Shown: one piece after another, positions 43,370 through 49,321 of the stretch
Layout of the letters: every line of letters begins with the position of its first letter
Numbering within the stretch: the stretch's first letter is position 1
Assembly (NCBI GenBank): GCA_900696595.1
Contig: CAADGT010000084.1
Span: 1-64,000, forward strand
Length of the DNA stretch: 64,000 bases
Reading direction: 5' to 3'
DNA from: an uncultured Chloroflexota bacterium
GTDB lineage: Bacteria; Chloroflexota; Anaerolineae; Anaerolineales; Villigracilaceae
Notes under the pieces: model-generated
Told to the model about the DNA's origin: nothing
Seen by the model: only the letters and a program-made list of their open reading frames with translations
Databases searched by the model: none
Made by a program: the position numbers and the translations under genes

Positions 43370-43957
43370 CTACCCGCCCACTTGAACGCCGCCCCCGGCG
43401 TACGCGCCGCGCGTCTTCTCGCGCAGCGCCCGTTCGAAAGCCCGCTGTTCCGCTTTCAACGCGTCTATCTTGCGCTGGACGTGGGGAGAAAAATAGCCCG
43501 CGTATCGTTTCTGGAGTTCCGGCTTCTGCCAGTCCGCGCCGCTTACTTTACCGCGACAGTTCGGCGCGCCGCACAGGCAGTCGAACTCGTCGTAAGGCGC
43601 GGTGTCGCTCATGGCATAGTCGAAACAGACTTCCTCGCCGATCTGAATGTCTCGCATGGCAACGAGTATGATCTGGCCCGAAAGACCTGCGTTCGGGTTG
43701 CACGAGTGATTGACAAAATCTCCCTTGCCGATGGGGCGCGGAACCAGAAAGTGCCGGTCTTCGATCTGAAGACTCAGACTGCGTTCGCGTTCGGGAAGGC
43801 AGATAAAGGTCTCCCATTCATACACAACGCCGCCGAAAACAGCGAGCAACCCGCCCTTTTGAACGGGCTCGCGGGCGACAACGCTGTTTCCGCTTTTATC
43901 GGCTTTCAGGCGACCTTCCAACTTAGAAGACAGATAGGAACTCGGTTGCTTGGACAT
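43370..43957 (-). CDS. SET-domain protein (putative protein lysine methyltransferase)
   Basis: 195 aa. SET core motifs are FVNHSCNPNAGLSG (the NHS-CxPN S-adenosylmethionine/pseudoknot motif) and IGEEVCFDYAMSD (the GEE-L-x-x-DY motif). The post-SET CLCGAPNCRG has the zinc-binding CxCxxxxC arrangement. A charged helix ends the protein. Bacterial SET proteins methylate lysines on proteins; the target is unknown. It is a single gene, convergent with tatA. Confidence 0.85.
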   Translation of the reverse strand: MSKQPSSYLSSKLEGRLKADKSGNSVVAREPVQKGGLLAVFGGVVYEWETFICLPERERSLSLQIEDRHFLVPRPIGKGDFVNHSCNPNAGLSGQIILVAMRDIQIGEEVCFDYAMSDTAPYDEFDCLCGAPNCRGKVSGADWQKPELQKRYAGYFSPHVQRKIDALKAEQRAFERALREKTRGAYAGGGVQVGG

Positions 43958-44428: not shown

Positions 44429-46402
44429 CTATTCCCCCCACCGCGCCCCCCAATCCGGTTCAGGGTCGTTCGTCAACTGCCGCATCCCGGAGCCGTCCGC
44501 CTCCATGATATACAAATCCGCCTGGTCGTCGTTGCGCAGGGAATTGAACACAATATATTGACCGTCCGGCGAATAGGACGCCCCGGCGTTATTCCCGCCG
44601 AACGTCAATTGGACGGATTTCCCCGTCGCGGCTTCGATCTCGAAAATATCCTTATCCCCGAATGGGCCGGCGTACACCAACAACGACCTCCCGTCCGGCG
44701 ACCAATCCACGCTGCCGCCGATCCCCTGCAAACCCTGCGAGACTTTGAGATGGTTTCGCCCGCTTATGTCCATTGTATAGATTTCATATTCCTGCGGTCT
44801 TCCGGCGTTCATGGCGTAAGCGATCCTCTCCCCGTCCGGCGACCAGGCGACAGCGACGATATCCCTCGCGCCCGTATAAACCAGCCGCGGGTTCAGCCCG
44901 TCGGCGTTGACCATCCAGATCGCGGTGGGCGCGTCCCCGACCTTGTTCGCAAAGACGATCGCGCGCCCATCCGGCGAAAAATCCGGCGAGACGACGTCGC
45001 CGACCCCGTCCGTCAATTGATATACCTCGCGTTCAACGAAGTTGAGGATGAAGAAGTCGAAGTTCGGTCCGGCGCGATTGGAGGCGAACAATATCGAACT
45101 CGCGTCGGTTGTGAAAATTGGATAGTAATTGTTCGCCGCCATATCCGTCAGTTGGACAAGGTCGCTGCCGTCGCGGTTGATCATGCACAATTGGTTGTAG
45201 TCGCCGCGCGTGCAGGTGAAGACGATCCGCCCGCCGCTTGTCAATGTCGGTCGCGGCGTGGGCGTGGACGAAGGCTCAGGCGTGATGTTCGGGACGAATT
45301 TGGTGAAAACGATCGGCGTCGGCAGCGGCGTCTCGTCTGCGGGGCGGACGAGGAAGAACAGGGAGAGAAACCCGGCGATGATGACAAATAAAAGAATGGG
45401 GACAAAAGCGGGTCGAGCGGGCGTTTTCTTTTTAGGCGCGGATAGCGACGCGAGTCTTTCATCGAGGGGAATCGTATCTTCGCCGACGGTCTTCGTTTTG
45501 GGCGGCGGCAGGAACTCCCAGGCGCTGAGCGCGGCGGAGATCACCGGCGCTGTTTTCGGTTCGGCGCGCGGCGGAATTTTATCCGGCGGGACCCCGGCGG
45601 CGAGCGCGAGCGACGAGGTCAATTCTGTGGCGGTCTTGAGGCGGTCTTCGGGATTTCTTCTCAACGCCCAGAGAATCATGCGCGAAAACTTGTCGGGTAG
45701 ATTCTTGTTCAGGGTCGCAGGAGCCGGTATCGGCGAGGCAAGATGCGCGGCGCGGATGGAGTCGAAAGCCCGGGGCGGAGTCTTCCCGTTTATCCACGCG
45801 CCGGTTGTTAATTCATAGAGAATCACTGCCAGGGCGTAGAAGTCGGCGGCGGGGGCGGCGTCCTTTCCTTGAATTTGTTCGGGGGCGAGATAATGCGGCG
45901 GATATTTCGCCGCGCCGATCTGTCGCGTTCCTGCCGCGCCAATGCCGCACACGAGGATTTCGCCGCGTTTGACGATGCGGATAAGTTCGGGCGCGAGATG
46001 CAGGTGTGGGAGATTCAGTTTGTGAAGCGCGGTCAATCCCTTGCAAACCGCATCTGCGACGAAGAGCGCCTCCTCCGCGTCGAGCCGCCCGCGCTCGCGG
46101 ATGTGTTTCAGCGTCGGACCGTCCGCCCATGTTTCGAGAAAAAATGTATGCGTGGAGGTTTTGTGAATCCCAAGATATTCGTTGATGTTCGGATGCGCGA
46201 TGCCCTGCAAACGAATCGCGTTCGATTCGAGTTCTTTGAGGGCTTCGGTATTTGCGGCGACAGTTTTGGGAAGGAGGGTGAGGGCGAAGGGTTTGTTTGC
46301 GCGCTCGTCCACGGCGCGATACAGTTCCCCCAGCGGCGTGTTGGCGATGAATTCTTCGATGCGATATTGATGCAGGAGGGTTTTGACGGCGAGGGCGGGC
46401 AT
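44429..46402 (-). CDS. Ser/Thr pseudokinase with membrane helix and TolB-like propeller
   Basis: 657 aa. Residues 10-270 have the Pkn2-type kinase layout, but catalytic motifs are missing. The VAIK Lys is Thr42 (ALTLLP), HRD is H133-L-H135, DFG is G153-I-G155, and the Gly loop is absent. The APE-like YLAPEQIQG, DFYALAVILYELTTG and RNPEDRLKTA remain. A membrane helix (about 332-353) follows. The C-terminal 270 residues have about six WD40/PD40 TolB-type repeats (SPDGERIAYA, WSPDGRSLLVY) outside the cell. It is probably a non-catalytic sensor or scaffold. Confidence 0.84.
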   Translation of the reverse strand: MPALAVKTLLHQYRIEEFIANTPLGELYRAVDERANKPFALTLLPKTVAANTEALKELESNAIRLQGIAHPNINEYLGIHKTSTHTFFLETWADGPTLKHIRERGRLDAEEALFVADAVCKGLTALHKLNLPHLHLAPELIRIVKRGEILVCGIGAAGTRQIGAAKYPPHYLAPEQIQGKDAAPAADFYALAVILYELTTGAWINGKTPPRAFDSIRAAHLASPIPAPATLNKNLPDKFSRMILWALRRNPEDRLKTATELTSSLALAAGVPPDKIPPRAEPKTAPVISAALSAWEFLPPPKTKTVGEDTIPLDERLASLSAPKKKTPARPAFVPILLFVIIAGFLSLFFLVRPADETPLPTPIVFTKFVPNITPEPSSTPTPRPTLTSGGRIVFTCTRGDYNQLCMINRDGSDLVQLTDMAANNYYPIFTTDASSILFASNRAGPNFDFFILNFVEREVYQLTDGVGDVVSPDFSPDGRAIVFANKVGDAPTAIWMVNADGLNPRLVYTGARDIVAVAWSPDGERIAYAMNAGRPQEYEIYTMDISGRNHLKVSQGLQGIGGSVDWSPDGRSLLVYAGPFGDKDIFEIEAATGKSVQLTFGGNNAGASYSPDGQYIVFNSLRNDDQADLYIMEADGSGMRQLTNDPEPDWGARWGE

Positions 46403-46463: not shown

Positions 46464-46667
46464 TTACAACGCCCACGCCAGCATCAAACCGAAAATGGCG
46501 ATGATCAGGCCGAGGTGCAGGCAAAGGTTTGAGGCGACGATGATCGAGCCGGGCAGGATGAATTGAAGCGCAAGATTCAAAGCGATAAAAACCAAACCGA
46601 CGATGGGTAGCAGACCTTTGCGGCGGGCAAGATAATTGGAAAGCGCATCGAGCAGTTTCGAGATCAT
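46464..46667 (-). CDS. Small membrane protein
   Basis: 67 aa, mostly two hydrophobic helices (GLLPIVGLVFIALNLALQFIL and ASNLCLHLGLIIAIFGLMLAWAL) after a basic N-terminus. Its ATG overlaps the hflX stop (ATGA), which supports it being real. Its function is unknown. Confidence 0.65.
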   Translation of the reverse strand: MISKLLDALSNYLARRKGLLPIVGLVFIALNLALQFILPGSIIVASNLCLHLGLIIAIFGLMLAWAL

Positions 46668-48031
46668 GCTTCCTCCGGGTTGGTTTCGTTGCGGCGCGGG
46701 GCGTTCCCGTTCGTTTTGATCTTCCAGGGGGCAAATTGCGCCAGGAGCCTTCCAGGCAGGCTGCCATGGATGACGACCCCGCCGCGTTCGTGTTCGAGAC
46801 GTTCGACCTGACCCAATTCGTGATAGAGCGAGATTAACGCGCCTTCCTTATATGGCAGGCGTACGCCGATGGGTTCAAAGGCTTCGAAGAGTTCTTCCTG
46901 CGCGAGCCTGAGCAGGTCCGCGATGCCCGCGCCTTTCAGCGCGGAGACGGCGACCGATTTGGGGAAGTTTTCCAAAACGCGCGCGGCGTTCTCCGGGTCT
47001 TTCAGGCGGTCGGCTTTGTTCAGCGCGGTAATCATGGGAATGTGACCCGCGCCGATCTCTTCCAGCGTTTGCAATACGGCTTGGTACTGACCGAGCGCGT
47101 TCGGGTGAGAAATATCAACCATGTGCAGGAGCAGGTCGGCTTCGGCGATCTCTTCAAGCGTGGCGTGGAATGCCGCGATCAATGCGGTGGGGAGTTTTTG
47201 GATGAACCCGACGGTGTCGGTGAAGAGCGCGGTGTGATCGCCGGGGAGTTGCACTCTGCGGGTCGTCGGGTCGAGCGTGGCGAAGAGTTGGTCGGCGACG
47301 TAGACGTCGGCTTTGGCGAGACGATTCAACAGCGTGGACTTGCCCGCGTTGGTGTACCCGACCAGGGCGACGGTGGGGATGCGCGAACGCTTCCGCTGGG
47401 CGCGGTAACGGTGACGATGTTCTTCGACCTTCTCCAATTCTTTCTTGATGCGCGAGATGCGCCTGCGGATGGCGCGGCGGTCAACTTCGAGCTGGGTCTC
47501 GCCGGGACCGCGCAAGCCCACGCCGCCGGTGGAGCCGGCTCTTCCGCCGCCGCCGCCCGCCTGCCGTTCGAGGTGAGTCCATGCGCGGGTCAGACGCGGC
47601 AGGTTGTACTCATATTGCGCGAGTTCCACCTGCAACATGCCCTCCTTTGTGCGCGCGTGTTGGGCGAAGATGTCGAGGATCAACGCGGTGCGGTCAATGA
47701 CGCGCACGGTTTTGCCGAGCGCCTTTTCCAGTTCGCGCTGGTGACGCGGCGAGAGTTCTTCGTCGAAGATCACAACTTCGGCGAGCGTTTCCTCTGCGAG
47801 TAATTTCAATTCCTCCACTTTGCCGGGACCGATGTAGGTTTCGACATGGGGGCGGTTGAGGCGTTGGGTGAGTTCGCCGACCACGTCCACGCCGGCGGTG
47901 TCGGCGAGCAGGGATAACTCGGCAAGAGAATCTTCAAGAGGCAGGATGTTCTTGTGATCGTGGAGCGCGACGCCGACCAGAAAGGCGCGTTCACGCGGGG
48001 GGGTTGTCGGTTGGGGGATTTTCTTCGCCAC
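46664..48031 (-). CDS. hflX: Ribosome-associated GTPase HflX
   Basis: 455 aa. The HflX N-terminal domain (VDVVGELTQ, YIGPGKVEELK, DEELSPRHQRELEKAL) is followed by the Gly-rich GGVGLRGPGETQLEVDRR linker helix. G motifs are GYTNAGKST, DTVGFIQKLP and TALNKAD. It splits stalled ribosomes under stress. The first 40 bases overlap the end of the histidine kinase gene upstream. Confidence 0.95.
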   Translation of the reverse strand: MAKKIPQPTTPPRERAFLVGVALHDHKNILPLEDSLAELSLLADTAGVDVVGELTQRLNRPHVETYIGPGKVEELKLLAEETLAEVVIFDEELSPRHQRELEKALGKTVRVIDRTALILDIFAQHARTKEGMLQVELAQYEYNLPRLTRAWTHLERQAGGGGGRAGSTGGVGLRGPGETQLEVDRRAIRRRISRIKKELEKVEEHRHRYRAQRKRSRIPTVALVGYTNAGKSTLLNRLAKADVYVADQLFATLDPTTRRVQLPGDHTALFTDTVGFIQKLPTALIAAFHATLEEIAEADLLLHMVDISHPNALGQYQAVLQTLEEIGAGHIPMITALNKADRLKDPENAARVLENFPKSVAVSALKGAGIADLLRLAQEELFEAFEPIGVRLPYKEGALISLYHELGQVERLEHERGGVVIHGSLPGRLLAQFAPWKIKTNGNAPRRNETNPEEA

Positions 48032-49264
48032 TGGTTTCCGTTTCTATTCTTTGTTCTTCGAGGTTTCCGAAAAATTTGAGCATGACCGGGTTGTCCGGCT
48101 CGGTGCGCGTAGGCAGGAGGATGTGGAAGGTGGCGCCGGGCAGTTCTTTTTCATCGTATCCGGGCGATTCGACCCAGATCGTGCCGCCGTGCGCCTCGAT
48201 GATTCCGCGCGAGATGGAGAGTCCCAGACCGGGACCGCCTCCCTTGAATTTGGTCTTGCCGCTCGAGTGCAGGTCTGTGCGTCCCAACAGCCCGAACTTT
48301 TCGAAGATGAGCGTCTGCTTTTCGGGCGAGATGCCGATGCCGGTGTCTTTGACAGTGATCTCGACGAAGCCGGGCAGCAACCGCCCGTCAATGACGATCT
48401 GACCGCGGTCGGGCGTGTATTTGATGGCGTTGGTGATGACGTTGTTGAACGCCTGATACAGCCTGCCTGAATCGCCGTAGATCATCAAATCGCTTCCTTC
48501 AAAGTCGTTCACGATCAGCGTTTGTTTGCGTTCGGCGATTGGCTTGCGGAATTCGTTGCGCGCCAGGTCGAGCAGGTGGCTGATCCACATCGGCTGGACA
48601 TTGAGCGTGAGCAGATTGTTGTCTATCAGCGAGACGTCTATCATGTCGTCTATGATGTCGGCAGGCGCAGGATGCCGGTATTGACGCCGTCGAGATAATT
48701 CTTCATCGGCGTTTCGCCGTCGTCCGACGCCAGGTCCGCCATCATCGAGGCATAGCCTTCGATCAGGGTCAGGGGCGTCTTTAGTTCGTGCGCCGCCACC
48801 GAGATGAATTTCGATTTGTTCTGGTCGAGCGCCTGGAGTTTCTCCTGCACTTCGCCCAATTCCTTCGAGACGTGCGCCACGCGCGTCTCCATTTCGTAGC
48901 GGATGACCACTCCCAGGCTGTGAGCCAGCACGGGGACGACCGCGCCAAGCAAATCCAACGCCTCTTTCGGTTTCAAGCGGTCGCGCGCGATCTCAATGGT
49001 GAGCGCGATCATGCGGTTGAGGATGAAAGAAACGGAATAATCGGCCGCTTCCAGGTTCGTTTCGGTGGGGGAGCGTCCCCAATCGTACAGGATCGGGTCG
49101 AGCCACGCCATGTCCCCGGTGACGATGGATTGTTCGAGCAGGTCGAAAAAACGTTCCAGCTGTTCGTTAAATCCCGCGCGCACGCCCTCTCCAGCCGCCA
49201 TTTCGCGGGAGACGCGTTCAACCCAGATGGTGCGGAGTTTTTTTAACGACGCCTGTACTGTCAT
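47991..49264 (-). pseudogene. Sensor histidine kinase split by a frameshift
   Basis: The 5' part (49264-48650) encodes a helical input region and HisKA with SVAAHELKTPLTLIEGYASMM, then reads GILRLPTS and stops. The 3' part (48644-47991) opens MIDVSLIDNNLLTLNV and holds the HATPase motifs NVITNAIKYTP, DTGIGISP and GPGLGLSISRG. Adding one base in CTGCC-GACATCATAGAC at about 48655 joins them to the expected continuation DIIDDMIDVS. It is a one-base deletion (real or a sequencing error) in an otherwise intact kinase of about 424 aa. The start at 49264 has AAGG upstream. Confidence 0.82.
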
Positions 49265-49321
49265 TGCCTTAAGTTTACGCCCAGTTTCCGCTTTTTGGGT
49301 AGGTTGGATTGCCAATCCGAC

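Follow-up and report, generated by a model that had tools for sequence, protein, structure and literature searches.

A single-pass membrane pseudokinase with an outer TolB-like propeller in Anaerolineales, a candidate receptor-like scaffold

Introduction

PknD of Mycobacterium tuberculosis joins an inner kinase, through a transmembrane (TM) helix, to an outer β-propeller that has been proposed to bind ligands (PMC3601408), and reports of WD-repeat kinases exist for Chloroflexus and cyanobacteria (PMC1262709). The MviN pseudokinase of Actinobacteria (ActPs3) is a membrane protein in which every catalytic motif is degraded, and for which a docking role was shown. In ActPs1, also from Actinobacteria, all three catalytic residues are substituted and a PQQ_2 domain lies at the C terminus. 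ActPs2 is defined by an Arg in β3 and a large activation-loop insert, and the GLW family by GLW in place of HRD and Leu or Trp at the position of the β3 Lys (PMC12599244). Bacterial pseudokinases are a little-studied group, and the text of a review that distinguishes seven families mentions neither propellers, nor TolB, nor Chloroflexi.

Here we analyze a gene for a 657-residue protein in a 64,000-nucleotide stretch of DNA (the window) from an uncultured Chloroflexota bacterium of the order Anaerolineales. An initial annotation had described the product as a TM pseudokinase tied to an outside propeller and had suggested that it is a ligand-sensing scaffold.

Results

Architecture of the protein

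Both Pkinase (PF00069, residues 24 to 261, E = 6e-21) and PD40 repeats (E = 1e-20) were detected in the protein above the Pfam cut-offs (Table 1). The AlphaFold2 model has a mean pLDDT of 81, with about 90 for the kinase part. In VIA-align comparisons of the model, the best bacterial kinase matches of the kinase domain were PknB and PknA, with Z scores of about 27; the value for PknB, 27.8, together with the Pfam match identifies a Hanks-type kinase-like fold. The propeller matched TolB with a Z score of about 33 and an rmsd of about 2.4. The segment between the two domains shows a hydropathy peak of 2.91, preceded by five Lys or Arg residues and followed by one, and this positive flank on the kinase side places the propeller outside. 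Thus, Pfam matches, alignment, model and hydropathy agree on the proposed combination of a non-catalytic kinase domain, a single TM helix and an external TolB-type propeller, the kinase being confidently modeled as PknB/PknA-like.

The likeness to TolB is one of propeller fold. As a candidate for TolB of the Tol-Pal system, the protein scored 142 against a cut-off of 343 with TIGR02800, and the genome, which is 94% complete, contains no match to TolB_N (PF04052) or to the MotA/ExbB/TolQ family of Tol partners (PF01618). An assignment as TolB is thus rejected.

Table 1. Positions of the gene, its parts and its conserved neighbors in the window
Feature	Position	Strand	Evidence
Pseudokinase-TM-propeller gene	44429..46402	minus	657 aa; ORF, translation, orthologs
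Pseudokinase domain, residues 10-268	45599..46375	minus	Pfam PF00069, AlphaFold2, PknB/PknA matches
Thr42, at β3 (VAIK) Lys position	46277..46279	minus	Lys in 0/40 orthologs
His135, at HRD catalytic Asp position	45998..46000	minus	Asp in 0/40 orthologs; mostly Asn
Gly153, at DFG Asp position	45944..45946	minus	Gly in 40/40 orthologs
Juxtamembrane motif WEFLPP, residues 295-300	45503..45520	minus	Trp in 34/34 fused proteins checked
Transmembrane helix, residues 334-352	45347..45403	minus	Hydropathy peak; positive flank on kinase side
Extracytoplasmic TolB-like PD40 propeller, residues 388-657	44432..45241	minus	Pfam PD40; TolB structural match
HflX GTPase gene, conserved upstream neighbor	46664..48031	minus	Pfam, synteny
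SET-domain protein gene, conserved downstream neighbor	43370..43957	minus	Pfam PF00856, synteny

Loss of the catalytic residues

Residue conservation was read from an alignment of 40 orthologs. Position 42 is occupied by Thr, Ile, Phe or Val, and position 135 by Asn in most proteins and by His, Ala, Ser, Arg or Lys in the others, while position 153 is invariant. The three replacements are exactly those that the initial annotation had named, and they extend to the family, as none of the 40 proteins has any of the β3 Lys, the HRD Asp and the DFG Asp of an active Ser/Thr kinase. The glycine loop and the position of the αC Glu (N61) are likewise devoid of conservation. The C-lobe motifs do survive as had been claimed, since the structural residues E175 (of APE), D187 and R254 are present in all 40 orthologs. 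Because they are common to orthologs that are 50 to 72% identical, the substitutions go beyond chance, and a kinase fold whose catalytic motifs are lost across a conserved family corresponds to a bacterial pseudokinase.

A shifted register that would restore the catalytic residues was found in none of the aligned orthologs. All of them lack Asp in the catalytic-loop window, residues 128 to 143, in addition to having Gly153 and no Lys at position 42. A basic residue is conserved at position 37, before β3, and K46 follows β3 in 31 of the 40; judged from the alignment, neither is the β3 Lys. The pseudokinase probably does not bind ATP. An unconventional enzyme, whose fold binds nucleotide or catalyzes a different transfer, for which a few atypical kinases are a precedent, is highly improbable: G153, which is invariant, and the conserved H-L-N-L-A-P-E segment could represent an altered active site, but none of the glycine loop, the β3 Lys, the catalytic Asp and the metal-binding Asp is left, and the residue at position 135 is variable.

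Origin of the pseudokinases

In a tree of 67 kinase domains, all 21 pseudokinase rows grouped in a single clade (99/99) that lies within the intact kinases, and the clade persisted when the motif columns were removed (91/96). The intact kinases around it have the K/D/D residues and read HCD for HRD. This topology points to a single origin of the pseudokinases from intact kinases. Those of another family, f14, branch at the base of the clade, and two of them (L139 and L166) keep the β3 Lys with both Asp residues gone, which suggests that the Asp residues were lost before the Lys. L089, which read V/D/D in the raw alignment, was labeled intact by hand, as its β3 region looked misaligned; the tree placed it far from the pseudokinases. 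Kinase genes of the HCD type or close to it also occur in groups: three intact HCD-type genes are in tandem at L095:1-5637, the middle one with PD40 repeats, and at least nine near-HCD-type genes lie within about 35 kb on contig C30 of genome G072 (L152, L169, L176, L181).

Distribution, neighborhood and selection

A search of the genome itself and 60 relatives identified orthologs in 35 of the 37 genomes of the same genus, several of these orthologs being truncated at the end of a contig; none was recognized in the remaining two, G002 and G015. Most orthologs have fixed neighbors, HflX upstream and the SET protein downstream, and most sufficiently long loci show the order TrmFO, M28 peptidase, histidine kinase, HflX, pseudokinase gene, SET protein. 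The genes linked to it in this way are all housekeeping genes, and the linkage holds chiefly inside the genus. G215 retains HflX together with its upstream genes, but its propeller is kinase-less (L138, which seems to share a contig with L076). At 47991-49315 of the window, the histidine kinase gene that precedes HflX consists of two ORFs in different frames, with the HisKA and HATPase parts, and in relatives such as L067 it is one ORF of about 424 aa; the split is a frameshift, either in the genome or in the assembly.

The conserved neighborhood bears on the possibility that an intact membrane Ser/Thr kinase is the partner of the pseudokinase and is regulated by it, either through allostery or by a decoy effect. 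Seven kinase matches in the genome are stronger, among them L088, which is intact and matches the propeller weakly, and back-to-back dimers are known from some bacterial kinases as well as from the MviN pseudokinase (PMC12599244). Against this, the conserved gene neighborhood showed no intact Ser/Thr kinase, and we consider such a partnership quite unlikely. L088 (contig C168; 741 aa) is itself a candidate active form of the same architecture.

For the 14 closest ortholog pairs, dN/dS was 0.06 to 0.27 for the kinase part and 0.035 to 0.17 for the propeller, so that the former evolves about twice as fast. Ratios this low between close pairs indicate purifying selection on the kinase part; by this measure the pseudokinase is constrained, though less so than the propeller.

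The propeller with and without a kinase domain

Propeller matches at a threshold of E 1e-60 were found in 92 of 400 genomes of the order. Matching open frames of about 600 to 725 aa occur in genera g1, g30, g45, g29, g37, g41 and g38; all fused proteins examined are pseudokinases, three of those from g38 with a shortened C-lobe. At least 10 other genera of the family have frames of mostly about 340 to 480 aa that lack the kinase domain, showing that the two parts are separable. In G269, from family f14, a gene for a 525-aa sister pseudokinase lies 16 bp upstream of that for a 375-aa sister propeller. No further pair of this kind was present at the same threshold among 38 genomes of f14, and the 1.5 kb of sequence examined with the propeller match of G200 contains no kinase. 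Four f14 pseudokinases are separate genes (L160, L162, L166 and L139), and two of these, L160 and L139, have a TM-like segment followed by a small terminal domain of similar appearance. A separate pseudokinase gene was also sought in the 15 f1 genomes, G072 aside, that have a kinase-less propeller, and no match exceeded about 168 bits, which is what generic kinases reach; G072, also an f1 genome with a kinase-less propeller, has intact HCD-type kinases.

In the propeller tree, three fused g38 proteins fell outside all others (98/92). This favors fusion as the older state, with later loss of the kinase, on a root that is weak and in a tree that has long branches. As to one or several losses, a single kinase-less clade was not rejected (p-AU 0.37).

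The juxtamembrane segment

A Trp lies between the kinase and the TM helix in every one of the 34 fused proteins checked, even in those with a shortened C-lobe. It is part of a W-x-[FY]-L-P/S motif in 33 of them, the exception being L114 with WKSPSLP. The N-terminal tails of kinase-less propeller proteins showed no such motif, nor did three of four f14 pseudokinases and three intact relatives scanned; the fourth f14 protein, L166, has one match further along. We infer that the segment may serve in docking.

These data also allow us to weigh whether the kinase fold is a fading relic that persists merely as an anchor while the function lies with the membrane-anchored propeller. The many genera with kinase-less orthologs, the faster evolution of the kinase part and the shortened C-lobes of g38 would fit. 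However, the low dN/dS of the kinase part, the retention of the ortholog in nearly all genomes of the genus and the Trp of every fused protein, shortened ones included, make a relic unlikely.

Discussion

The protein is likely to be a non-catalytic, receptor-like single-pass membrane scaffold. This reading draws on the loss of the catalytic residues while E175, D187 and R254 are invariant, on the presence of the ortholog across the genus and the dN/dS of both parts, on the model matches to PknB/PknA and TolB, on the single pseudokinase clade within intact kinases, on the juxtamembrane Trp, which marks the fused proteins, and on the adjacent sister genes of G269. Counted against it are the twofold faster evolution of the kinase part, the genera without a kinase domain and the shortened g38 C-lobes, and a gene order linked to housekeeping genes alone. 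As a dead kinase of single origin from working kinases has been kept genus-wide, the domain is probably a docking platform rather than an enzyme.

The ligand-sensing scaffold suggested at the outset is plausible, and we favor it. The outer propeller would bind a protein or another ligand, and the inner pseudokinase, with the W-x-[FY]-L-P segment, would offer a docking surface to a partner in the cytoplasm, which might be an active Ser/Thr kinase or a substrate of such a kinase. Ligand binding outside would then alter how that partner is held. More tentatively, the protein may represent a lineage of TM pseudokinases of single origin from intact kinases that need no phosphotransfer, dock through W-x-[FY]-L-P and have been joined to, and cut from, the outer propeller in a modular fashion. 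With intact relatives, dead versions and kinase-less versions, the lineage lends itself to comparisons that show what a dead kinase adds.

Closest in the kinase tree are the intact HCD-type kinases of Anaerolineales (e.g., L095 and L096), one of which, L095:2181-4205, shares PD40 repeats with the pseudokinase protein. They differ from it by having the glycine loop, Lys, Asp and DFG all present. PknD resembles the 657-residue protein in its order of inner kinase, TM helix and outer β-propeller, a likeness of architecture, but it is an active kinase and its propeller is six-bladed. Compared by description only, ActPs1 shares the substitution of the three catalytic residues and a C-terminal repeat domain, PQQ_2 being a propeller-type repeat, but it differs in repeat type and phylum. 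Similarly compared by description, MviN/ActPs3 is also a membrane protein, and its catalytic motifs are all degraded; in contrast, it has a hallmark activation-loop deletion, no propeller has been described for it, and it belongs to a different phylum. The β3 Thr and the lack of a large activation-loop insert set our protein apart from ActPs2, as do its HLN or HLH sequence and the same Thr from the GLW family. Bacterial membrane pseudokinases are already known as a kind, and the Anaerolineales protein is a variant of it.
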